Positions 3,971 to 23,758 of a stretch of 33,363 bases of DNA are shown piece by piece (the first letter of the stretch is position 1; every line of letters begins with the position of its first letter). This stretch comes from Thermodesulfobacteriaceae bacterium (GTDB lineage Bacteria; Desulfobacterota; Thermodesulfobacteria; Thermodesulfobacteriales; Thermodesulfatatoraceae). The position numbers and the translations under genes were made by a program. The DNA lies in NCBI GenBank assembly GCA_015494065.1, contig WGCA01000061.1, forward strand, positions 1 to 33,363, in the 5' to 3' direction. The notes under the pieces were generated by a model. It searched no databases. It had not been told where the DNA came from and worked only from the letters and a program-made list of their open reading frames with translations.

Positions 3971-4609
3971 CTAACCCAGCCAGCCTGGAAAGAGTTCTGC
4001 CAGGCCTCTTGCCATATATTCAACGGAAATGACGGCCAAAATCAAGCCCGTAAGGCGCACAAAAAGATTGGTCCCGGTCTGGCCGAGGAGTCTGGCCAGG
4101 CGGGCGGCGTGGGCAAAGATGAGAAAGGTAAGCCCGGCTACCAAGAGAGCCGCCAGGACCACTTTTAGGCGCAGATCCCACTGTGGAACCCCTCCGGTAA
4201 GGACCAATACCGTGGTAATGGCCCCGGGACCTGCCAGGATAGGCACTCCTAGGGGCACCACCGCGATGTCTTCTTTAAGACGACTTTCCTCTTCCTCCTC
4301 AGGCAGACTCTTGGTGGCCCGTGGCTGGGCCTGGATCATCTGAAGCGCTATCAAGAGGAGGATCAAGCCCCCGGCTACCCTGAAAGAGGCCACGGAAATA
4401 TCGAAATAAAGGAGGATCCTGTCTCCCAGGAGCGAAAAGGCCGAAAGCACCGCCGCGGCCACTATGGAGGCCTTAAGCGCCAAAAGGCGCCTCTTTCTTT
4501 CCGAAAGTCCCTCTGTCAGCCCCAGAAAGAGGGGGATACAGCCGATGGGGTCCACTATGATAAAAAGGGGCACGAAGATGTTCAAAAAGTCTTTCAAAAG
4601 GCTATCCAT
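3971..4609 (-). CDS. MarC family (UPF0056) integral membrane protein
   Basis: This is a small polytopic inner-membrane protein of unknown transport function. Recognisable family segments are FIIVDPIGCIPLFLGLT near residues 16-32, the first-helix motif, and VPLGVPILAGPGAITTVLVL near residues 117-136. About six hydrophobic helices alternate with short charged loops, including an acidic EEEEE-type loop in the middle. The 212-residue length is normal. The name MarC comes from a discarded link with multiple antibiotic resistance, so no resistance role should be inferred. It overlaps the upstream UPF0104 gene by eight bases, and no clear ribosome binding site is visible, which suggests coupled translation. 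Confidence 0.9.
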   Translation of the reverse strand: MDSLLKDFLNIFVPLFIIVDPIGCIPLFLGLTEGLSERKRRLLALKASIVAAAVLSAFSLLGDRILLYFDISVASFRVAGGLILLLIALQMIQAQPRATKSLPEEEEESRLKEDIAVVPLGVPILAGPGAITTVLVLTGGVPQWDLRLKVVLAALLVAGLTFLIFAHAARLARLLGQTGTNLFVRLTGLILAVISVEYMARGLAELFPGWLG

Positions 4610-5516
4610 TTTGAGAACCTTTAAGCCCCCTGGGCCCGGTCAAATAGAGTATACCGCCGATAATCCCCCCAAGGAGCATGACCCCGTATATAAGAAAACC
4701 TAAGGCGATACCCAGCTCCTTGGGATAGCCCAAAAGTTGCAGAAAATAAGAGAGTGTACCCTCTCTTATTCCAAACCCCCCCAGGCTAACCGGCAGGCTG
4801 GCCAAAATACCCATAAGGGGGATGATCAAAAAATACTTGGGCCAAGCGAGGGAAAGCCCCAGGCTAAGGCCCAAAAAGTACACGTGGACGTTGTAAAACG
4901 CCTGGACCAAAAGGCCCAGGATAAAGAGTTTGGCAAAATTGGCCGGTGGGGCCACGGCGGTGAGGGTTTGGAAGAGCTCGTGTCCGATCTTCTCCCTAAG
5001 CGTCCGGGAAAACAAAACCACCACCAGTACCGCTGCCAGGATGGCCATCGAAAGAAAAAGGAGTCCTCTTTGGGCCAGGGGAGGTAAAAACGCCCCTTCC
5101 AAAGGCAAAAAAACGATCAGCAAAAAAAGCGCCCCCAGGAGCCCAAACCCCCGGTCGTAAAGCACGCTAAAGGAAGCCACGCTTTTGGCAGCCCCTTCTT
5201 TTACCAGGTAAAAGACCCGGACGATGTCTCCCCCAAGAAGCCCGGGTAAGAAAGTGTTGAAATAGACCCCGATAAAATAAACCCGCACGAAAAAGAGGTA
5301 ATTTTTTTTAAAACCCAAGATTTCGGCAATTTTATACCAGCGATAAGTGCTTAAGAGTTGAAAAGCAAAAAAGAAAAGGATCGCAAGCAAAAACCAGGAA
5401 GGTTTTATTTGTTTGAAACTTTGCCACAGGAGCCGGAAATCCGTGTGGCGGAAGAGATAAAAGAGCAGGCCAGCACTGACCGCCAGTTTTAAAAAGAAAG
5501 AAAGGGTCTTTTTCAC
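4602..5516 (-). CDS. UPF0104 / lysylphosphatidylglycerol-synthase-type transmembrane protein
   Basis: This polytopic membrane protein has about eight hydrophobic segments, starting with SAGLLFYLFRHTDF and including the family-typical FNTFLPGLLGGDIVRVFYL near residues 90-108 and SLGGFGIREGTLSYFL near the C-terminus. The family is related to the membrane half of MprF and to AglD-like proteins; members are suspected of handling lipid-linked substrates, but this one has no catalytic soluble domain. The GTG start shares a GTGA overlap with the preceding glycosyltransferase stop. The pairing suggests lipid-linked sugar transfer or flipping, which is inference. Length 304 residues is normal. Confidence 0.87.
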   Translation of the reverse strand: MKKTLSFFLKLAVSAGLLFYLFRHTDFRLLWQSFKQIKPSWFLLAILFFFAFQLLSTYRWYKIAEILGFKKNYLFFVRVYFIGVYFNTFLPGLLGGDIVRVFYLVKEGAAKSVASFSVLYDRGFGLLGALFLLIVFLPLEGAFLPPLAQRGLLFLSMAILAAVLVVVLFSRTLREKIGHELFQTLTAVAPPANFAKLFILGLLVQAFYNVHVYFLGLSLGLSLAWPKYFLIIPLMGILASLPVSLGGFGIREGTLSYFLQLLGYPKELGIALGFLIYGVMLLGGIIGGILYLTGPRGLKGSQNG

Positions 5517-6460
5517 TCAACAACCTCTCGCACGGCGTAAATACGTTTGCCAGAAGATTCGTAATAGGTACGGATCAAGAGCTCGGCAAGCAAGCCGGTC
5601 CCCAAAAGATTGATACCGGCTAGGATAAGGAGGACCCCTAGAATTAAGAGGGGCCGGTGGCCAATTTTTTGGTGCAAAAAAAGTTTAAGATATGTCAGGT
5701 AACACTCAATAAGAAAACCGAGGAAAAAGAGTATCCCCCCGGTAAGACCAAAAATGTGAAGGGGTTTGGTGGCGAACTTGCGGAAGAAAAACATCAGTAA
5801 GAGGTCAAGCAGGACCCGGTAAGTCCTTGAGAAACCATATTTACTGCGGCCGAAACGGCGAGGATGGTGGCGGACCTCTACTTCGGTCACTCGGGCCCCG
5901 GAAAGGTTGACCAGGGCGGGAATAAAACGGTGTAATTCTCCATAGATGATGAGCCCCTTGATGACCTCGGCCCGGTAGGCCTTTAAGCTGCAACCGTAAT
6001 CGTGGAGTTTAACCTTGGTAATGCGGGAAATGAGGGCGTTGGCCAGAAGGGATGGCAGCCTGCGGGACCAGAAAGGGTCCTTCCGGTCCTTGCGCCAGCC
6101 GGAAACCACGTCAAAACCTTCTTTGATTTTTTCAAGTAAGAGCGGAATATCAGCCGGGTCGTTCTGGAGGTCTCCGTCCATGGTCACGATGACTTCTCCG
6201 GAGGCGTGGTCGATGCCTGCGGTAAAAGCGGCGCTCTGGCCAAAATTCCGCCGTAACACCACGATCTTGAGCCAGGGATAGATAGATTTTAGTTCTTTAA
6301 GCCGCGCAAGGGTCCCGTCGGTAGAACCGTCATCCACGATTATTACCTCAAAGGGTTTCCCGAGGGCGGTAAGGGTTTTAGAAAGCCCCTCCAGCAGGGG
6401 AGGAATATTTTCCTCTTCGTTGTGGACAGGAATGACTACGGAAAGATAAGGCTTGGTCAT
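5513..6460 (-). CDS. Family 2 glycosyltransferase with C-terminal membrane helices (ArnC/GtrB-like)
   Basis: The enzyme is predicted to move a sugar from a nucleotide donor to a polyprenyl-phosphate carrier at the cytoplasmic membrane face. The N-terminal GT-A domain shows SVVIPVHNEEENI (residues 7-19), VDDGSTDGT, and the metal-binding MDGDLQNDP. The mid-domain HHPRRFGRSKYGF segment is typical of dolichol-phosphate-mannose-synthase-like enzymes. Two hydrophobic spans follow after residue 235 (GLTGGILFFLGFLIE and LLILGVLLILAGINLLGTG). It overlaps htrA (ATGA) and the UPF0104 gene by four bases each. The sugar is not determined; undecaprenyl-phosphate aminoarabinose or glucose transferases are alternatives. 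Confidence 0.9.
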   Translation of the reverse strand: MTKPYLSVVIPVHNEEENIPPLLEGLSKTLTALGKPFEVIIVDDGSTDGTLARLKELKSIYPWLKIVVLRRNFGQSAAFTAGIDHASGEVIVTMDGDLQNDPADIPLLLEKIKEGFDVVSGWRKDRKDPFWSRRLPSLLANALISRITKVKLHDYGCSLKAYRAEVIKGLIIYGELHRFIPALVNLSGARVTEVEVRHHPRRFGRSKYGFSRTYRVLLDLLLMFFFRKFATKPLHIFGLTGGILFFLGFLIECYLTYLKLFLHQKIGHRPLLILGVLLILAGINLLGTGLLAELLIRTYYESSGKRIYAVREVVE

Positions 6461-15339: not shown

Positions 15340-16514
15340 TCAGACCAGCCGAAGTCGCCAACCTCATCACCCAACTGGCCAAAAGTCGGGAAAGGATAAG
15401 TGACCTTATCTTCACCCCGGGAAGACCCCTCCAGGTGGCGGCCGACGGCAGGCTCCATCCAGTAAAACTGCCTTACTTTCCGTTGACCGAACTTACTCCC
15501 TTTCAAACGGAAGTATTGGCTCTGGCCCTTATCGGGCGGGAAAAAAGGCTTCTAAGGGACCTTTTGCGCACAGGCTCGGCGGATTTTTCTTATCACCTAC
15601 CTGACGGGACCAGGTTCAGGGTAAACGTGTTTTCCCGTCAGGGCACTTACGCCATTGTTATGCGAAAACTGGCCTCCCGCCCGCCCCGGATAAAGGAATT
15701 GGGGCTGCCAAAGGCCTGCTACCTTATGGCCCGGGAAAAGTCCGGCATCATCCTGGTGACCGGGGCCACGGGGCAGGGAAAGACCACCACTCTAGCGGCC
15801 ATTTTGGAGGAGATAAACCACAGCGAGCCGCTCCACATCGTCACCCTGGAAGACCCGGTGGAATACCTGCACCGCCCGGCCAAGGCTACCTTTAACCAGC
15901 GGGAACTGGGTAAAGACTTTGACACCTTTGCCAACGGTTTGCGGGCTGCCCTGCGTCAGGCCCCGCACGTCATCCTGGTAGGTGAAATCCGGGACCGGGA
16001 TACCATGGAAGTGGCCCTTTCCGCCGCGGAAACCGGCCACCTCGTCTTCTCCACCATGCATACGGTCGGGGCCGGCAACACCATCAACCGCATTCTTGGG
16101 TTCTTCACCGTAGAGGAAGAACGGCAGATAAGGCTGCGCCTGGCTGATACGGTGCGCTGGATCGTGGGACAAAAACTTGTCCCGCGCAAAGACGGCGGCC
16201 GGGTGGCCATCTTCGATATCCTGTTCAATAACATCCGGGCCAAAGAGACGATTATTAAAGGAGAGGACGAAAACCGGACTTTTTACGACATCATAAGCAA
16301 AGGTTCCCCCTATCATATGCAGACCTTTGACCAGCACTTACTAAGCCTTTACGAACAGGGTGTTATTGAAGAAGAAGTAGCCCTCGCCTACTGTACCCGC
16401 CGGGACGTGGTGGGGCGCGGGATTGATCTTATTAAGAGTAAGAGAGGGGAGAAGACCAGCGAACTTGAAGACGAAAACCTAACCATCGAAATAGAAGACC
16501 GGAGGCGCTGGTGA
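15336..16514 (+). CDS. pilU: PilU-like type IV pilus ATPase
   Basis: This second PilT-family ATPase is predicted to assist PilT as a PilU-type accessory motor. Walker A GATGQGKT is at residues 143-150, LEDPVEYLH forms the Asp box, RQAPHVILVGEIRD (207-220) contains Walker B, and the His box is TGHLVFSTMHT. The usual PD pair before Walker B is PH here (His211), a departure from PilT, PilB and most PilU proteins. The C-terminal SPYHMQTFDQHLLSLYEQGVI matches PilT/PilU. A charged tail of about 25 residues is extra. It overlaps pilT (ATGA) and the zinc-ribbon gene (GTGA), so the three form one translational unit. Assignment to PilU rather than a second PilT is by neighbourhood and length. Confidence 0.85.
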   Translation: MIRPAEVANLITQLAKSRERISDLIFTPGRPLQVAADGRLHPVKLPYFPLTELTPFQTEVLALALIGREKRLLRDLLRTGSADFSYHLPDGTRFRVNVFSRQGTYAIVMRKLASRPPRIKELGLPKACYLMAREKSGIILVTGATGQGKTTTLAAILEEINHSEPLHIVTLEDPVEYLHRPAKATFNQRELGKDFDTFANGLRAALRQAPHVILVGEIRDRDTMEVALSAAETGHLVFSTMHTVGAGNTINRILGFFTVEEERQIRLRLADTVRWIVGQKLVPRKDGGRVAIFDILFNNIRAKETIIKGEDENRTFYDIISKGSPYHMQTFDQHLLSLYEQGVIEEEVALAYCTRRDVVGRGIDLIKSKRGEKTSELEDENLTIEIEDRRRW

Positions 16515-17098
16515 TCGAAGCCAGGTGTGTAAGTTGCGGCAAAAGGTATCGCCTGAAGGGTGACCCTCAGGCCATGGATTTTCTGTCCCTTCCCTGTCCA
16601 GAATGTGGGGGCATGCTCGAGATAGCCGGGGGAACGGAAGGGATGGAGTTTGAATTTCTGCTTGACAAGCCCCTGGCCCTGGTCTTCTGGGAATATCCGG
16701 GAGACCGAACCCCCTTTCTCAAAGAGCTGGCCCAGGCGGGCTACGAGGTACGCCCTGTCAAGAAGGCGGCCTTGCTGGCCCAGTGGCTCAGGTTTAACCC
16801 TCCTTCTCTTGTGGTTTTTGTCTGCGAAGAGAAGGAAAAATTGGCTCCTTTCCTCACCATCCTGAACAAATTGCCCATGCCTGAGCGGCGTAAAATCTTT
16901 GTCACCTGGGTGACACCGGGTCACAAGAGTCTGGATCCCCGCGAGGCCTTCCTTTTGAGCATAGAGCTGATAGTAAACGCGGCTGACCTTTCCCGTTTCG
17001 TGGATATCCTGGCCCGGGGGCAAAAAATTTGGCAAGACTTCTATACCCCTCTCACCCAGACCGAAGAGGCCCTTGAGAAAGATTTAGCTTGCTTTTAG
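16511..17098 (+). CDS. Unrecognised zinc-ribbon protein with a possible degenerate receiver-like domain
   Basis: I do not recognise this 195-residue protein. A small zinc ribbon opens it: Cys6-x2-Cys9 and Cys29-x2-Cys32, with CVSCGKRYRLKG and CPECGG. Residues about 55-170 alternate hydrophobic strands and helices (LALVFWE, YEVRPVK, SLVVFVCEE, KIFVTW) in an order that resembles a CheY-like receiver, but there is no Asp at the expected phosphorylation position, which reads FVCEEK. No transmembrane segment or signal is visible. The GTG start is fused to the PilU-like stop (GTGA), so a role tied to pilus retraction, perhaps regulating the ATPases, is reasonable inference. Structural prediction would test the receiver idea. 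Confidence 0.75.
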   Translation: MIEARCVSCGKRYRLKGDPQAMDFLSLPCPECGGMLEIAGGTEGMEFEFLLDKPLALVFWEYPGDRTPFLKELAQAGYEVRPVKKAALLAQWLRFNPPSLVVFVCEEKEKLAPFLTILNKLPMPERRKIFVTWVTPGHKSLDPREAFLLSIELIVNAADLSRFVDILARGQKIWQDFYTPLTQTEEALEKDLACF

Positions 17099-17150: not shown

Positions 17151-18023
17151 ATGGGGATCAAAAAAGCTGTTTTGCCGGTAGCCGGTTTGGGTACCCGCTT
17201 TTTGCCTGCCACAAAGGCCATTCCCAAAGAGATGTTGACCGTAGTTGACCGGCCTACCATCCAGTACATCGTGGAGGAGGCGGTAAACTCAGGGGTAAAA
17301 CAGGTGATTTTAGTGACGGCGGCGGGTAAATCCGCCATCGAAAACCATTTTGATTATTCCTACGAGCTGGAATCCTACCTGGAGGCCAAAGGGAAATACG
17401 ACCTGCTGGAAGAGGTACGCCGGGTCACCAACCTTATCGAAGACATCATCTCCGTACGGCAGAAGAAGCCGTTGGGGTTGGGACACGCCGTCTATGTCAC
17501 CCGCCACGTGGTGGGGCGGGAACCCTTTGCCGTATTGCTGGGGGACGACCTGGTGGACGCAGATGTCCCGTGTCTTAAGCAGATGATCGAGGTCTTCGAC
17601 CGCTTCAAGGGCCCGGTGATCGCCGTCCAGCGGGTGCCGCGGGAGGAGATCTCCCGCTACGGTATCGTGGCCGGGGAAAAAGTGGCCGAAGGGGTCATCC
17701 GGGTGCGGGAAATGAAGGAAAAGCCCAAGCCCGAAGAGATTGACTCGGACCTGGCCATCATCGGCCGTTATATCCTGATCCCCGAAATTTATGATTATCT
17801 TGCCAAGACCCCACCGGGCGTAGGAGGGGAAATCCAGCTCACCGACGCCCTGGCGGCGCTCAAAGACGACCATCCGGTTTACGCTTACGAATTTCAGGGA
17901 ACACGTTATGATGCCGGGGATAAGTTTGGTTTCATGCAAGCGGTCATTACTTTCGCCTTGAAACACCCGGAAATCGGTGACAAAGTCCGCAAATTCCTTA
18001 AAGAGAAACTTAAAGAACTCTGA
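17151..18023 (+). CDS. galU: UTP-glucose-1-phosphate uridylyltransferase GalU
   Basis: GalU makes UDP-glucose for envelope polysaccharides and nucleotide-sugar pools. The signature VLPVAGLGTRFLPATKAIPK (about residues 7-26) is clear, followed by QYIVEEAVNSGVKQVILVT, the metal-binding region LLGDDLVDAD, and GGEIQLTDALAAL near residue 225. Length 290 residues is normal. A 52-base gap with AGAAAGGGGG before the ATG makes this a possible transcription start, but I see no convincing promoter boxes. Its 3' end overlaps the next gene by 47 bases if that gene starts at GTG 17977. Confidence 0.95.
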   Translation: MGIKKAVLPVAGLGTRFLPATKAIPKEMLTVVDRPTIQYIVEEAVNSGVKQVILVTAAGKSAIENHFDYSYELESYLEAKGKYDLLEEVRRVTNLIEDIISVRQKKPLGLGHAVYVTRHVVGREPFAVLLGDDLVDADVPCLKQMIEVFDRFKGPVIAVQRVPREEISRYGIVAGEKVAEGVIRVREMKEKPKPEEIDSDLAIIGRYILIPEIYDYLAKTPPGVGGEIQLTDALAALKDDHPVYAYEFQGTRYDAGDKFGFMQAVITFALKHPEIGDKVRKFLKEKLKEL

Positions 18024-19818
18024 GGAAGAGGGCAGGGCGGTAGAAGTCGTTCTGCCTTACCGTTTAAAGCCTCTGACCTACTGGCACCGCGGGCCCTTTA
18101 TCCCTGGTGCCCGGGTTTGGGTCACCTTAAAGGGGAAGAAAAAGATTGGTCTCCTCTGGGGGGAGGCCCGGGAAGCGCCCCCGTACCTTAAAGAAACCCT
18201 TGGTCTCTTGGACCAGGCCCCGGTTCTCCCCAAAAACCTTCTGTCTTTCCTGCACTGGCTTGCTAATTTTTACCTGGCCCCGGCCGGAGAGGTGCTGAAA
18301 TACGCCGTGCCGGCCAGTTTTTTCGTCCAGACCAGGCGGGAAAAAGAGGCCTTTAGAAAAGAAACAGCGGCCCATATGGGGCCAGGGTTTGAGGCCGCCC
18401 TCTTTTTTGGTGAGGACTTAAAAGAGAGATCTTCCTGTCTCAGGGCCCGGATAGAAAAGGTTTTGAAAGAAAGAGGTTCGTGTCTTTTCCTCTTCCCCGA
18501 CCGGGAGCTCCTTTTTTTCTACGCCGAAAGACTAAAAGACCTTTCCCCCCTGGTATATACCGCTGATCTGTCTCCCAAAAAAAGGGAAAAGATCTGGTTT
18601 GAGTGTCTGACGACCCCGCAAAGGCTCATCCTGGGTACCAGGATTGCCCTTTTCCTTCCCGTCACTGGTCTAGCCCTTATCCTGCTCGAAGAGGAAGAAC
18701 ACCACGGTTACAAACAGGAAGAAGGGTTTCGTGCCAACTTTAGGGATCTTGCCTTGATGCGGGCCAAAATGGAAGCGGTTCCCATGCTCCTCGCCTCCCC
18801 AAGCCCCACTGTCAAGACTTATTATTTGGCCCTAAAAGGGATCTACCGCCTGGAAGAAGGGAGGCGCTCTCCCTCACCGGTCAAACTGGTAGTCTTAAAG
18901 GAGGCCAGAGGCCTCTTTTCTACCAAACTGTTAAACGCCCTCCGGCGCACCCTGGCCCGGAAAGGGCAGGCCCTGCTTTTCATGAACCGCCCTGGTTACG
19001 CCCCCGGGGTGGTGTGCGAAAATTGTGGCCATCTGTGGCTTTGCCCCCGCTGCCAAAAACCCTTGCGTTACTACCGGGAAGAGGCCCTTTTGCGCTGCCC
19101 CCTCTGCGCCTACCGGGAAAAGGCCCTGCCCCTTTGTCCCCGGTGTGGCAGCGAAAGGGCCAAACCCCTGGGGCTCGGTACCGAACGGCTGAAAGAAATT
19201 GCCAAGAAATTTTTCCCAGAAGCCCGGATCTCTTTGTGGGAAGAAAAGGACTTGGCCGCGGCGGATATCATCATCGCCACCGCCAAGGTAAGCCGCTTTT
19301 CACCCTTAAGAAGGCCCGCCCTGGTCGCGGCCTTGGTGGCGGATCAGCTTCTGGGGCATCCCTCTTATCTGGCGGCAGAAAGGGCCTATCAATTACTTAA
19401 AAAATTGGCGCTAATTGCCCATGAAAACGAAGCAAATTTTATAATCCAGACCTACCATCCCGAACACCACCTCTACCGGGGGCTGCTGCAGGGCTACGAG
19501 GCCTTTTTCAGAGAAGAATTAAAACTCAGGCACGAACAGGGCTTTCCTCCTTTCGGACGACTGGCCCAACTCATTATCTACCCGGAACGCGTGAAAGTTG
19601 AGGAGGTGGTAAAGGTCGTCGAAAATTACTTAAAGGAAGAAGCGGCGGTTTATTTTGGGCCGCTTCTTGAAAGCGTGCGCGGCAAAAAAAGGCTTTCTTT
19701 TTTGTTGCGGGCCGCAGAGAGCGAGAGTTTGCGATCCTATCTCACGAAGGTGAAAAAAAAGCTTGATGAAATTTTTAAAGGTCGGCTTAGAATTATAGTA
19801 GATTTAAGTCCAGAATAA
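17977..19818 (+). CDS. priA: Replication restart protein PriA (primosomal N'), helicase motifs lost
   Basis: PriA normally recognises stalled forks and reloads the replicative helicase. The DNA-binding N-terminal domain begins EVVLPYRLKPLTYW near residue 23. The zinc module is intact, with eight Cys at 347, 350, 356, 359, 374, 377, 387 and 390, and the C-terminal QTYHPEHHLYRGLL is typical. The helicase core is degenerate: the Walker A position (about 140-154) reads ALFFGEDLKERSS with no GxGKT, DEEH is EEEH (239-242), and the QVAGRAGR motif VI is replaced by KKLALIAHENE (475-485). The length, 613 residues, is shorter than typical active PriA. The only common start codon is GTG 17977, inside galU; a later unusual start is possible. 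Actinobacterial and Deinococcus PriA are also helicase-less. Confidence 0.9.
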   Translation: MTKSANSLKRNLKNSEEEGRAVEVVLPYRLKPLTYWHRGPFIPGARVWVTLKGKKKIGLLWGEAREAPPYLKETLGLLDQAPVLPKNLLSFLHWLANFYLAPAGEVLKYAVPASFFVQTRREKEAFRKETAAHMGPGFEAALFFGEDLKERSSCLRARIEKVLKERGSCLFLFPDRELLFFYAERLKDLSPLVYTADLSPKKREKIWFECLTTPQRLILGTRIALFLPVTGLALILLEEEEHHGYKQEEGFRANFRDLALMRAKMEAVPMLLASPSPTVKTYYLALKGIYRLEEGRRSPSPVKLVVLKEARGLFSTKLLNALRRTLARKGQALLFMNRPGYAPGVVCENCGHLWLCPRCQKPLRYYREEALLRCPLCAYREKALPLCPRCGSERAKPLGLGTERLKEIAKKFFPEARISLWEEKDLAAADIIIATAKVSRFSPLRRPALVAALVADQLLGHPSYLAAERAYQLLKKLALIAHENEANFIIQTYHPEHHLYRGLLQGYEAFFREELKLRHEQGFPPFGRLAQLIIYPERVKVEEVVKVVENYLKEEAAVYFGPLLESVRGKKRLSFLLRAAESESLRSYLTKVKKKLDEIFKGRLRIIVDLSPE

Positions 19819-19867: not shown

Positions 19868-21577
19868 ATGAGTGAGGAAAAGTTTTTGCCACCGTTTCCC
19901 AAATACAAAAAAACACGCCCATCAGGAGACGAAATGGCTATCCCTCGTTTTGGCACCCAATCCCGATCAAGTCGGGGCCACGGCCCCCAGGCCTTGATCA
20001 ACTTTGATCTAAACCCCGAAGACCTGGAAAGTTATCTTGACGAGTACGTCATTGGGCAAGCCGAGGCCAAAGCGGTCCTGGCCACCAAGATGTGCACTCA
20101 CTTTCGCCGGGTGCGTTACATGCTTGAGCGAGGGGGGCGTTTCCAGGACGCAGGTTTTGTCAAGAACAACGTGATAATGATCGGCCCCACCGGGGTGGGT
20201 AAGACCTATATGGTCAAACTGGTGGCCCAGCGGCTCGGGGTCCCCTTTGTAAAAGGAGACGCCACCAAGTTTAGTGAGACGGGCTACGTGGGTGGTGACG
20301 TGGAAGATCTCATCCGCGACCTGGTCCATGAGGCGGACGGAGACGTAGAGCGGGCCCAGTTTGGCATCGTCTATCTCGACGAAATAGACAAAATCGCCTC
20401 CAGCGGAAACCTCATCGGCCCTGACGTCTCAAGGACCGGGGTACAGCGGGCCCTGCTCAAACCCCTGGAAGAGACCGAGGTGGACTTGAGGGTGCCTCAT
20501 GATCCGGTAAGCCAGCTTGAGGCCATCGAATACTACCGCCGCACCGGGCAACGCAAGAAGAGGACCATTAACACCCGTTACGTCCTTTTTATTGTGTCCG
20601 GGGCCTTCTCGGGCCTTGAGGAGATCGTCAAAAAGAGGCTCCACAAACAGGGCCTGGGTTTCATGGCGGAGGTAACTTCCAAAAATGACGTAGAGGTAAA
20701 TTACTTGCGCTTCGTTAAGGCTGAGGACCTGATCGCCTACGGGTTCGAATCGGAATTCGTAGGGCGGCTGCCGGTAATCACGGTTTTTGACCCTTTAACC
20801 GTCGAGGACCTCTATCTGATACTCTGCAACCCCAACAGCGCGGTAATCGTCAACAAGAAACGCGACTTTCGGGCTTACGGTATCGACCTGGTCTTTGAAA
20901 ACAAGGCTCTAAGACTCCTGGCCCAGGAGGCGGAAAAGGAAAAGACCGGGGCCCGGGCCCTGGTACGGGTCATAGAAAGGGCCCTTATCCCCTTTGAGAA
21001 AAGGCTTCCCACCTTGGGGGTCAATTACCTGGTGGTAACCGAAGAATTGGTAAAGGATCCCCTCGGCTGGCTCTCTCATCTGGAAAATACCTGGCGTCAG
21101 CCGGAGTGGGAAAAGAGGTATCAAGCCGCCTTAGAACAAGAGGCTTCCCGGATCAAGGAATTCGTGGCGGCCAGGAAAAAGTCTTTCGCCCGGGGCCACG
21201 GCTTAAAGCTTACCCCGACTCGTCTTGAATTGGCCATTAAGCTCCACCGCCGGGACGACCTTGATCTGCACCAGGCCCTGGAGGAACTCTTTATCCTCTT
21301 GCGGCAGATTAAAAATTATGAGCGGAGCTTTGAAAGGCGTGCGGGTTTTAAGGTGACCTTTTCTGAAGAGGCGGTGGATCGCATCCTAAAACACATCATA
21401 GAGCTTGACCAAGGGGTGTACGCCTACTGCGACCGGATCGTGAATTTACTGGAATATGGTCTGAGGTTGATCAACGAACGCACGGGTAAGCTAAATTTTG
21501 TTATCCCGCCTGAGGCCATCGAGCACCCCGAAGATTACCTAAACCGTCTTATCAGGCAGACCTACCAGACCAAATAA
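19868..21577 (+). CDS. ClpX-like AAA+ unfoldase without zinc finger and with a C-terminal extension
   Basis: This is a divergent relative of ClpX. Walker A GPTGVGKT is at 106-113, the pore loop GYVG at 139-142, Walker B VYLDEID at 168-174, the FVGR arginine finger near 300 and sensor-2 GARAL at 361-365. LGF at 263-265 sits where ClpX has its IGF loop for docking ClpP. The zinc-binding domain of ClpX is absent. About 170 residues follow the normal ClpX end; residues 497-560 again resemble a small AAA+ lid (FSEEAVDRILKHI), perhaps a duplication. ATG 19868 lacks a ribosome site, while ATG 19934 (residue 23) has AGGAG five bases upstream and may be the true start. Genuine ClpX presumably lies elsewhere. 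The substrate is unknown. Confidence 0.88.
   Translation: MSEEKFLPPFPKYKKTRPSGDEMAIPRFGTQSRSSRGHGPQALINFDLNPEDLESYLDEYVIGQAEAKAVLATKMCTHFRRVRYMLERGGRFQDAGFVKNNVIMIGPTGVGKTYMVKLVAQRLGVPFVKGDATKFSETGYVGGDVEDLIRDLVHEADGDVERAQFGIVYLDEIDKIASSGNLIGPDVSRTGVQRALLKPLEETEVDLRVPHDPVSQLEAIEYYRRTGQRKKRTINTRYVLFIVSGAFSGLEEIVKKRLHKQGLGFMAEVTSKNDVEVNYLRFVKAEDLIAYGFESEFVGRLPVITVFDPLTVEDLYLILCNPNSAVIVNKKRDFRAYGIDLVFENKALRLLAQEAEKEKTGARALVRVIERALIPFEKRLPTLGVNYLVVTEELVKDPLGWLSHLENTWRQPEWEKRYQAALEQEASRIKEFVAARKKSFARGHGLKLTPTRLELAIKLHRRDDLDLHQALEELFILLRQIKNYERSFERRAGFKVTFSEEAVDRILKHIIELDQGVYAYCDRIVNLLEYGLRLINERTGKLNFVIPPEAIEHPEDYLNRLIRQTYQTK
19924..19936 (+). promoter_or_regulatory. Ribosome binding site and alternative start inside the ClpX-like gene
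   Basis: AGGAG at 19924-19928 stands five bases before ATG 19934. Nothing comparable precedes ATG 19868. If this is used, the protein loses 22 Pro/Lys-rich residues and begins MAIPRFG. Confidence 0.5.
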
Positions 21578-21578
21578 G

Positions 21579-21938
21579 ATGAAGACTGCCCTTCTTGCCG
21601 TTGCCAAAGCACTAGCCCTGGACTTTGAAAAAATTTTGGCCGCCGAAGGCTTCAAAATTTTTAAGGCCGAAGACGGTCAAGAGCTGGTAGACCTGGCCCG
21701 GGAAATTAAGCCGGACGTCATCATCTTGGAAAAGAAACTTCCGGTTTTAGACGGGTTGTCGGCGGTTTTGCTCCTTAAAAATAGCCAAGAGACCCGCCAC
21801 ATCCCCATCGTGGCGGTTTGTGAAGAAAAATGCAACCAAGAAGAGGAGGCCCAAGACGCAGGGTGCGACGCCTATCTTACAAGACCTTTAAAAGCTGATA
21901 AAATTAGACAAATTCTAAAAGAACTAGTGGCGAGGTGA
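21579..21938 (+). CDS. Stand-alone pseudo-receiver protein (Asp to Glu at the phosphorylation site)
   Basis: This 119-residue single-domain protein has a CheY-like fold pattern: FKIFKAEDGQELVDLA, DVIILEKKLPVLDGL, HIPIVAV, AGCDAYLTRPL. The signalling residues are altered. The phospho-acceptor position is Glu51 (IILEKKLP instead of ILLDxxLP), the acidic pair after strand 1 is missing (LLAVAKALA), the switch Thr/Ser is Cys (AVCEE), and the conserved Lys of KP is Arg (TRPL). It therefore cannot be phosphorylated in the normal way; Glu could mimic the phosphorylated state. It starts one base after the ClpX-like stop. Known receiver-type ClpXP adaptors (RssB, CpdR) and the pseudo-receiver adaptor PopA make an adaptor role an attractive inference. 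Confidence 0.85.
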   Translation: MKTALLAVAKALALDFEKILAAEGFKIFKAEDGQELVDLAREIKPDVIILEKKLPVLDGLSAVLLLKNSQETRHIPIVAVCEEKCNQEEEAQDAGCDAYLTRPLKADKIRQILKELVAR

Positions 21939-21942
21939 AAAA

Positions 21943-23127
21943 GTGATAGGGATTTCTAAACTTTATTGTGGTACGGTAGAGGCCTCCGATCCTTTGCGTT
22001 ACGGCCGCAGGGCCAAAGACCTGCCTTCTCACCTGCTCCAGTTTTCCAAGGACAAGAAACCGGTGGTGGTCTGGAACGTGACCAAGAGGTGTAATCTTCG
22101 TTGTATCCACTGTTACGCCCACGCCACGGCTTCGGCCCATCCAGACGAGTTAACCACCCAAGAAGGGTTTTCTCTTCTAGAGGACCTGGCTCAATTCGGC
22201 TCCCCGGTAATTCTCTTTTCTGGGGGGGAGCCACTTATGCGGCCAGATATCCTGGACCTGATCCACAAGGCCGTCTCCCTGGGTATGAGGGCGGTACTTT
22301 CCACCAACGGGGTTCTCATCGACCGGGCGCTCGCCAAGGAATTAAAAAAGCTGGGGCTTTCTTACGTGGGCATCAGCCTTGACGGGCTGGAGGAAGTCCA
22401 CGACCGGTTTCGGGGGGTAAAGGGCGCCTTTGCCAAGGCCATGGAAGCGGTGGAAAACTGTCAGGCCGAAGGGATTAAAGTGGGCCTGAGGTTTACCATC
22501 AACCGTTTGAACGCCAAAGAAATTCCCAAGGTCTTTGACCTGGTGGAAGAGCGAAAAATTCCCCGTATCTGTTTTTACCACCTGGTTTACGCCGGCCGCG
22601 GGACCAAACTCATGGAAGAAGACCTGAACCACGAGGAAACCCGCTACTGGGTGGACTACATTATTGACCGCACCAAAGAGCTTCACGACAAGGGGCATAA
22701 GGTAGAGGTCCTTACGGTGGACAACCACGCCGACGGCCCCTACCTTTACCTGCGTATGAAAAGGGAAGGGAACCCCCGGGCGGAGGAGGTCCTTGAGCTT
22801 TTGCGTATGAACGGCGGTAATAATTCCGGGGTCGGTATCGGTTGCGTTTCCTGGGACGGTTCGGTGCACGCCGATCAGTTCTGGCGTCATTATTCCTTTG
22901 GCAACGTGCGGGAAAGGCCCTTTAGCGAAATCTGGACGGATACCAGTGACCCTCTCATGGCCAAGCTCAAGGAGAAATGGAAACACGTTAAGGGAAGATG
23001 CGCCAAGTGTCGTTTCCTTGATTGTTGTGCCGGCAATTTCCGGGTACGGGCAGAGGCCGCTACCGGAGACCTCTGGGCCCCTGATCCGGCCTGTTACCTT
23101 ACGGACGAAGAAATTGGTCTAGCCTAA
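21943..23127 (+). CDS. ahbC: Radical SAM 12,18-didecarboxysiroheme deacetylase AhbC
   Basis: AhbC removes two acetate side chains from didecarboxysiroheme, giving iron-coproporphyrin III in the siroheme-dependent heme route used by sulfate reducers and archaea. The N-terminus [13 protein letters not shown] and the 394-residue length match that family as I know it. The radical SAM cluster motif CNLRCIHC is at Cys50, Cys54 and Cys57, SGGEPL is near 93-98, and a Cys-rich C-terminal segment (GCVSWDG, then [10 protein letters not shown]) fits a SPASM-like auxiliary cluster. NirJ of heme d1 synthesis is a close alternative. The GTG start follows GAGGTG and lies four bases after the pseudo-receiver gene; the functional link between them is not evident. 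Confidence 0.85.
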
Positions 23128-23149: not shown

Positions 23150-23758
23150 ATGGCCAAAATAAAGCGTGCGCTTATCAGCGTTACGGATAAGACCGGGGTG
23201 GCAGAATTCGCCAAGGCTTTACACGAAATGGGGGTAGAGATTATCTCTACCGGTGGCACGGCCAGGGTCATCCGGGAGGCCGGGGTCCCGGTGACCGACG
23301 TCTCGGAGGTGACGGGTTTTCCCGAGATGCTGGACGGGAGGGTCAAAACGCTGCACCCCAAGATACACGGCGGTATTCTGGCCATCAGGTCAAACCCGGA
23401 ACATATGAGACAGCTCGAGGAGCAGGGGATAAAACCGATTGATCTGGTGGTGGTCAACCTGTACGCCTTTGAGAAGACGGTGGCCCGGGGTGCCAGCCTA
23501 GAAGAGGCCATCGAAAACATCGATATCGGCGGGCCCACCCTTTTACGGGCGGCGGCCAAGAATTTCCGCGACGTTACCGTGGTGGTTGATCCGGCGGATT
23601 ACGACCAGATCCTGGCGGAGATGCGGGCCCATGACGGAGAGACCACCCTTAAGACCCGTTTCATCCTGGCCCGCAAGGTCTTTGAGACCACCAGCAAGTA
23701 CGACACCGCCATTTTTAATTACCTCAATGGGATAGACCCTGAAACCGTAAAAGGATGA
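23150..23758 (+). CDS. purH: Stand-alone IMP cyclohydrolase (N-terminal PurH domain only)
   Basis: This enzyme closes FAICAR to IMP, the last step of de novo purine synthesis. The MGS-like domain shows [55 protein letters not shown] and [14 protein letters not shown]. The protein stops at 202 residues, so the AICAR transformylase domain of bifunctional PurH (about 520 residues) is absent. The stop forms an ATGA with aroD, so it does not look like a recent truncation. The formyltransferase must be a separate gene elsewhere. AGAAAGGAG precedes the ATG. Confidence 0.93.

Follow-up and report, generated by a model that had tools for sequence, protein, structure and literature searches.

A pseudo-receiver encoded directly behind a ClpX-like unfoldase at heme-biosynthesis loci of Thermodesulfobacteriota: a candidate unfoldase partner

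What might a receiver domain that has lost its phosphorylation site do, when its gene begins a single base behind that of a ClpX-like unfoldase? The question is raised by a locus of a Thermodesulfobacteriaceae bacterium (contig WGCA01000061.1, of which a stretch of 33,363 nucleotides, here called the window, was analysed). The corresponding phylum, Thermodesulfobacteriota, consists of mostly anaerobic bacteria; RssB, a receiver-containing protein, is an adaptor of ClpXP. The original prediction read the small gene as a pseudo-receiver held in a permanently ‘on-like’ state by an Asp-to-Glu exchange, and as a possible dedicated adaptor of the unfoldase that precedes it.

The locus reads along the forward strand, in an assembly of 2.03 Mb that is 99.9% complete. 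A gene that we take, from recognition of its sequence, to be priA-like (17977-19818) is followed by the clpX-like gene (19868-21577), the receiver gene (21579-21938), ahbC (21943-23127) and the N-terminal half of purH (23150-23758), with intergenic gaps of 49, 1, 4 and 22 bases. The clpX-like frame stops with TAA at 21577, one base before the receiver’s ATG, exactly as had been noted, and with spacings as short as 1 and 4 bases, clpX-like, receiver and ahbC are very likely transcribed as one unit. The features on which the first part of the argument draws are these:

21579-21938, forward strand: pseudo-receiver gene, 119 aa, ATG start (Pfam Response_reg; AlphaFold2 model; orthologues directly behind clpX-like)
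21729-21731, forward strand: codon of Glu51, aligned with the phospho-accepting Asp (D57 of CheY); among 59 homologues, E in 38, R in 18 and K, S and Y in 1 each
21819-21821, forward strand: codon of Cys81, aligned with the switch Thr (T87 of CheY); 56 of 59 homologues have Cys here
21882-21884, forward strand: codon of Arg102, aligned with the conserved Lys (K109 of CheY); Lys in 0 of 59 homologues
21943-23127, forward strand: ahbC, 12,18-didecarboxysiroheme deacetylase (heme synthesis, siroheme route); TIGR04546, 725.1 bits against a cut-off of 650; 4 bases after the pseudo-receiver

Several neighbouring features may be recorded here in their own right. The purH gene encodes only an MGS-like domain and the first 59 positions of AICARFT_IMPCHas, and its truncated product is probably a stand-alone IMP cyclohydrolase; a similar gene of 196 aa lies nearby in relatives of the same order. 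Behind a PilT-like ATPase gene, positions 16511-17098 encode a 195-aa protein that matches nothing in Pfam or NCBIfam, and at two related loci (L071 and L072) a protein of 151-152 aa occupies the same place. A strong skew of A over T on the forward strand at 4001-6000 overlies genes of the minus strand whose products look like membrane proteins and a glycosyltransferase, and is probably ordinary codon composition.

The small protein has the receiver fold, as both its profile score and its predicted structure indicate. It matches Pfam Response_reg (PF00072) at 52.6 bits (cut-off 30.2), although only from model position 14 onward, because strand 1 and the loop that carries the acidic pair are degenerate. 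The AlphaFold2 model (mean pLDDT 92.6, pTM 0.87) consists of five intact beta-alpha units, and its best Foldseek match is DivK (TM 0.91-0.93, rmsd 1.1-1.4); a Pfam scan found no DNA-binding domain. None of the residues of a phospho-competent receiver is present: when the sequence is aligned with CheY, no acidic pair is seen, the beta1-alpha1 loop is two residues shorter, Glu51 stands at the phospho-acceptor position, Thr87 is replaced by Cys81 and Lys109 by Arg102. In these respects, as in the intactness of the fold, the original description of the protein holds. Pseudo-receivers are defined as receiver folds that lack one or more of five conserved residues, and are termed ‘aspartate-less’ when the Asp is among those lost (PMC12632262); judged by its sequence and modelled fold, the product of 21579-21938 is an aspartate-less pseudo-receiver under that current definition.

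The interpretation of Glu51 as a phosphomimic fared less well. Across 59 non-redundant homologues the Asp and the Lys are lost in every one, and the Thr in 58 as neither Thr nor Ser (Ser occurs once). Glu51 is invariant (38 of 38) in the Thermodesulfobacteriales lineage only, corresponding to families f1 and f3, and elsewhere the position holds Arg or Lys (19), Ser or Tyr; two divergent members (L213 and L214, with Tyr or Arg there) still lie beside clpX-like in spite of their drift. Mimicry by Glu is thought to be relayed by the conserved Thr and the conserved Lys (PMC12632262). With those two reading residues gone, and with opposite charges at the phospho-site in the two lineages, regulation either by phosphorylation or by Glu mimicry seems unlikely; the notion of Glu51 as a conserved phosphomimic was rejected, the ‘permanently on-like’ receiver found no support, and a partner that acts independently of phosphorylation would fit the residue pattern better. 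The Cys at the switch-Thr site is common to both lineages and better conserved family-wide than Glu51; a thiol-based role for it could be possible.

Loss of every phosphotransfer residue might also be taken as a sign that the gene is a decaying, functionless remnant of a response regulator. That explanation is scarcely credible, given that the protein is retained by each of the three families in the window’s order and in a second lineage, that its frames are full-length, and that an LLK motif in alpha3 is invariant, beside the Glu (38 of 38 in f1 and f3) and the Cys (56 of 59) already described.

Persistence of the pair in related genomes provides the firmest evidence in the study. In 38 of the 40 genomes of the same order that were searched besides the window’s own, the receiver lies directly behind clpX-like. 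The two exceptions, G006 and G040, are drafts in which neither gene is present in the assembly, a joint absence that could be explained by assembly gaps. A clpX-like frame lies directly upstream of 58 of the 59 non-redundant receiver-family members (the contig of the 59th ends inside clpX-like), mostly at a spacing of -4 to +18 bases. A phylum-wide profile search found no unlinked receiver copy, and among the collected loci neither a copy with the normal Asp nor a linked histidine kinase was found in the receiver slot. The pair is thus real and old. Its adjacency and the conservation of Glu51 were the first checks that the original prediction had suggested, and neither outcome named there as refuting has appeared.

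The pair occurs in two lineages, with the gene orders clpX-like–REC–ahbC and clpX-like–REC–hemB; outside the window’s order, a homologous pseudo-receiver occupies the same slot and is followed by hemB in families f50, f57, f63, f67, f80, f85 and f101. When the phylum was searched with a model built from both receiver lineages, 29 genomes scored at least 134 bits, G191 scored 103, and mostly ordinary receivers followed from 102 down, a gap that arises partly by construction since both lineages are in the model. Models built from a single lineage distinguish the other only poorly, and with overlap, from the best ordinary receivers: the Glu-lineage model gives the other lineage up to 99.8 bits (versus 90.4), and the Arg-lineage model up to 107.3 (versus 81.4). 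A common origin of the two is nevertheless likely, and is favoured by their shared position in the operon and their shared Cys; convergent recruitment to the same slot, if that is what took place, would itself argue for a functional pairing. A clpX-like tree made by a quick method groups the REC-ahbC genes in a single clade (SH-aLRT 99) and comes close to doing so for the REC-hemB genes. Both groups are nested in a larger clade, among whose other members are receiver-less genes linked to hemB and, in a few cases, to ahbC. A single gain of the receiver followed by losses would fit this tree, and so would two gains.

Which of its neighbours does the pseudo-receiver serve? It lies only 4 bases before ahbC, probably on the same transcript, and the control of bacterial pseudo-receivers is largely unexplained (PMC12632262); the protein could act upon heme enzymes or upon transcription rather than upon the unfoldase, in which case its operon position would reflect nothing but co-expression. 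We regard this as quite unlikely, because the protein carries no DNA-binding domain and because its downstream neighbour varies by lineage while the upstream one is constant. With clpX-like fixed on one side and ahbC exchanged for hemB on the other, the likeliest partner would be the unfoldase and not any one heme enzyme.

The presumed partner is described by the following features, numbered in residues of the ClpX-like protein as well as in bases:

19868-21577, forward strand: clpX-like AAA+ unfoldase, 569 aa, a ClpX paralogue without the zinc-binding N-domain (Pfam AAA_2 and ClpB_D2-small)
20183-20206, forward strand: Walker A motif GPTGVGKT, residues 106-113; invariant in the alignment, found in 131 of 132 family members
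20282-20293, forward strand: pore-1 loop GYVG, residues 139-142; 132 of 132 family members
20654-20662, forward strand: LGF, residues 263-265, in the position of the IGF loop with which ClpX docks to ClpP; [LIM]GF in 131 of 132
20759-21067, forward strand: first (canonical) small-domain region, residues 298-400; Foldseek match to ClpX, sensor-2 GAR
21068-21574, forward strand: C-terminal extension, residues 401-569, a helical linker and a degenerate second small-domain copy (hhalign, model)

Judged by its motifs, the protein is a ClpX paralogue with intact ATPase and pore elements. Among solved structures, ClpX chains match it best, aligning over residues 50-398, and it scores below the NCBIfam cut-offs for ClpX itself (315.1 bits against 359 for NF003745, 286.4 against 370.75 for TIGR00382). 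Beyond the Walker A and pore motifs listed above, Walker B is kept in 127 of the 132 family members and the sensor-2 GAR in all of them. The predicted ClpP-docking motif is also retained, as IGF in 77 members, LGF in 36 and MGF in 18. The modelled C-terminal part (pLDDT 89.5) superimposes on ClpX chains over about 90 columns at an rmsd of 1.4-1.6, and the same order of helices and strands is repeated in the extension, which hhalign relates to the first small domain with a probability of 96.8% (E 2.3e-10). Two elements of canonical ClpX are lacking: the zinc-binding N-domain is absent upon alignment with E. coli ClpX (a CxxC occurs within the first 90 residues of only 2 of 132 members), and the RKH loop is found in 0 of 132, most members having in its place a longer conserved loop, LRVPHDPxSQxEAIExYRxTG.

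These features bear directly on the model with which the study began, namely a CpdR- or RssB-like proteolytic adaptor, fixed ‘on’ by Glu51, that delivers substrates to ClpXP. The receiver fold, the close coupling to a ClpX-family ATPase bearing [LIM]GF and the single standard ClpP of the genome all speak for it. CpdR, however, is regulated by phosphorylation and binds the N-terminal region of ClpX (PMC8973945); the present receiver has no phospho-Asp, the unfoldase family has no N-domain to be bound, and the Thr and Lys through which a phosphomimic would be read are gone, while Arg, Lys, Ser and Tyr replace the Glu in homologues. In this form the adaptor model is very unlikely, and the analogy with CpdR fails in its known docking mode; what survives of the dedicated-adaptor interpretation is the stable pairing with a variant unfoldase. 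With regard to the protease, the genome also encodes a canonical clpX, 0.2 kb after the single full-length ClpP match. A dedicated second ClpP was considered as well and found to be unsupported, since the four further Clp_protease matches score weakly and map to other places in the genome.

The setting of the unfoldase gene across the phylum, which the original prediction had not touched upon any more than the ahbC gene directly behind the pair, offers a further indication of function: with or without a receiver, clpX-like is linked to heme genes. The family-specific C-terminal part of the protein, used as a query against 395 genomes, was present in 187 of them (118 of 246 genera), in most cases with no receiver alongside. 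Outside the window’s order, ahbC lies at most 850 bases downstream on the same strand in 52 of 77 genomes (those with both genes among the matches listed). Among 80 species-genome loci, which represent the best matches to the query and not a random sample, the next functional gene after clpX-like is ahbC in 34 and hemB in 24, preceded by a receiver in 9 cases each. These 58 loci belong to several clpX-like clades, and hemB and ahbD often follow. The remaining 22 loci have a DnaJ-type gene next (13) or none of these (9, some of them cut by a contig end). In the window’s own genome, ahbD and hemB are located away from the clpX-like locus. The sample contained no ClpX-like match in families f34, f42 and f56, though AhbC is present there. 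The link between clpX-like and heme genes is therefore strong and not exclusive, and shared expression alone may account for part of the gene order.

A DnaJ-type gene lies directly behind clpX-like, in the slot of the pseudo-receiver, at loci L120-L122, L127, L128, L136-L139, L141-L143, L147, L158, L161, L174, L197 and L207; the one neighbour scanned has a J domain and DnaJ_C, and the protein may be an alternative partner of the unfoldase. Some clpX-like lineages, at 13 of the 80 species-genome loci, are paired with such a gene and have no heme gene adjoining.

Such neighbours lend some weight to a more general role in proteostasis, in which the paralogue would be a stress chaperone or the ATPase of a protease, its location in heme operons being incidental, with the receiver as a general regulatory subunit that has no heme-specific client. 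A DnaJ-type co-chaperone gene would be at home in that arrangement, and ClpX3 of Myxococcus, also without N-domain and RKH motif, has a thermal-stress phenotype (PMC11423568). The same explanation gives no reason why ahbC or hemB should be the next functional gene in 58 of 80 loci from several clades, and it is, while unlikely, the alternative to be taken most seriously.

The reading that we favour, and hold tentatively at somewhat less than an even chance, is that the ClpX-like protein is a specialised ClpX paralogue of tetrapyrrole operons, bound in some lineages by the pseudo-receiver as a subunit and acting on a client from the heme pathway. In Thermodesulfobacteriota it would provide a second hexameric unfoldase of the ClpX type, one for tetrapyrrole (heme) biosynthesis. 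The pseudo-receiver would be its small, lineage-specific partner, a fixed and phosphorylation-independent fold that binds the unfoldase and is not a switch. Because the N-domain used by CpdR is missing, docking would have to take place elsewhere, with the duplicated C-terminal small domain as the obvious candidate site. The pseudo-receiver might select or position the client. Linkage to heme genes makes a heme-pathway enzyme a more plausible client than a cell-cycle-type regulator, and suggests a tetrapyrrole enzyme in particular. Such a client could be partly unfolded for loading or repair, in the manner of mitochondrial ClpX with ALA synthase; with [LIM]GF kept, feedback degradation by feeding it to the single ClpP would be equally open. 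As most ClpX-like proteins have no receiver, the receiver would not be needed for the core function. Binding, the adaptor-type role, the identity of the client and the choice between remodelling and proteolysis are what we infer from these patterns; the pairing is the strongest step of the argument, and the heme role the weakest.

A bolder version can be formulated, albeit as a doubtful proposition. It envisages a dedicated bacterial tetrapyrrole ClpX machine with an interchangeable slot for a small partner (filled in two lineages by a phosphorylation-blind receiver and in certain others by a J-domain protein) that sets client selection, the receiver acting as a replacement N-domain in trans that docks on the duplicated small domain.

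In the literature searched, no paper connects ClpX with operons of ahbC or hemB for these bacteria, and none was found on a pseudo-receiver as a ClpXP adaptor; nor was the pair itself found described there, its parts being of known kinds and their combination new. Compared with canonical ClpX (NF003745, TIGR00382), the unfoldase shares the AAA+ core, Walker motifs, GYVG, the GAR of sensor 2 and the [LIM]GF docking motif, and differs in falling below the equivalog cut-offs, in lacking the N-domain and RKH loop and in its duplicated C-terminal small domain. By published description it resembles ClpX3 of Myxococcus xanthus (MXAN_2743), which likewise has no N-domain, no RKH motif and low identity to ClpX; that gene is reported to be isolated in its genome, and the comparison is one of descriptions only (PMC11423568). 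Mitochondrial ClpX, which partly unfolds ALA synthase and so activates it with no proteolysis, is a further ClpX-family member connected with the synthesis of heme (PMC7077987), whereas the connection here consists only of gene linkage to ahbC and hemB. A widespread bacterial ClpX paralogue beside heme genes would suggest that the connection between ClpX and heme, known from mitochondria, is older or has arisen repeatedly.

On the side of the receiver, CpdR and PopA are ClpXP adaptors and thus also receiver-containing proteins that work with a ClpX-family ATPase (PMC8973945). The present protein differs from CpdR in lacking the phospho-site, and its ATPase lacks the N-domain; if the proposed partnership is true, a ClpX-type machine works without the very domain that a receiver-type adaptor such as CpdR uses. 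Single-domain receivers of the DivK type provide the closest fold and the closest solved sequence, and are set apart by the absence here of any phosphotransfer residue and by the genetic coupling to an unfoldase. The definition of pseudo-receivers fits exactly (PMC12632262), with two differences: Cys stands at the Thr site in 56 of 59 members, where the review gives Ala as the common replacement, and the likely partner is an AAA+ unfoldase. Pseudo-receivers are common and their mechanism in bacteria is mostly unexplained (PMC12632262); the present one comes with an unusually clear candidate partner, and the two genes together offer a concrete two-protein system for study.
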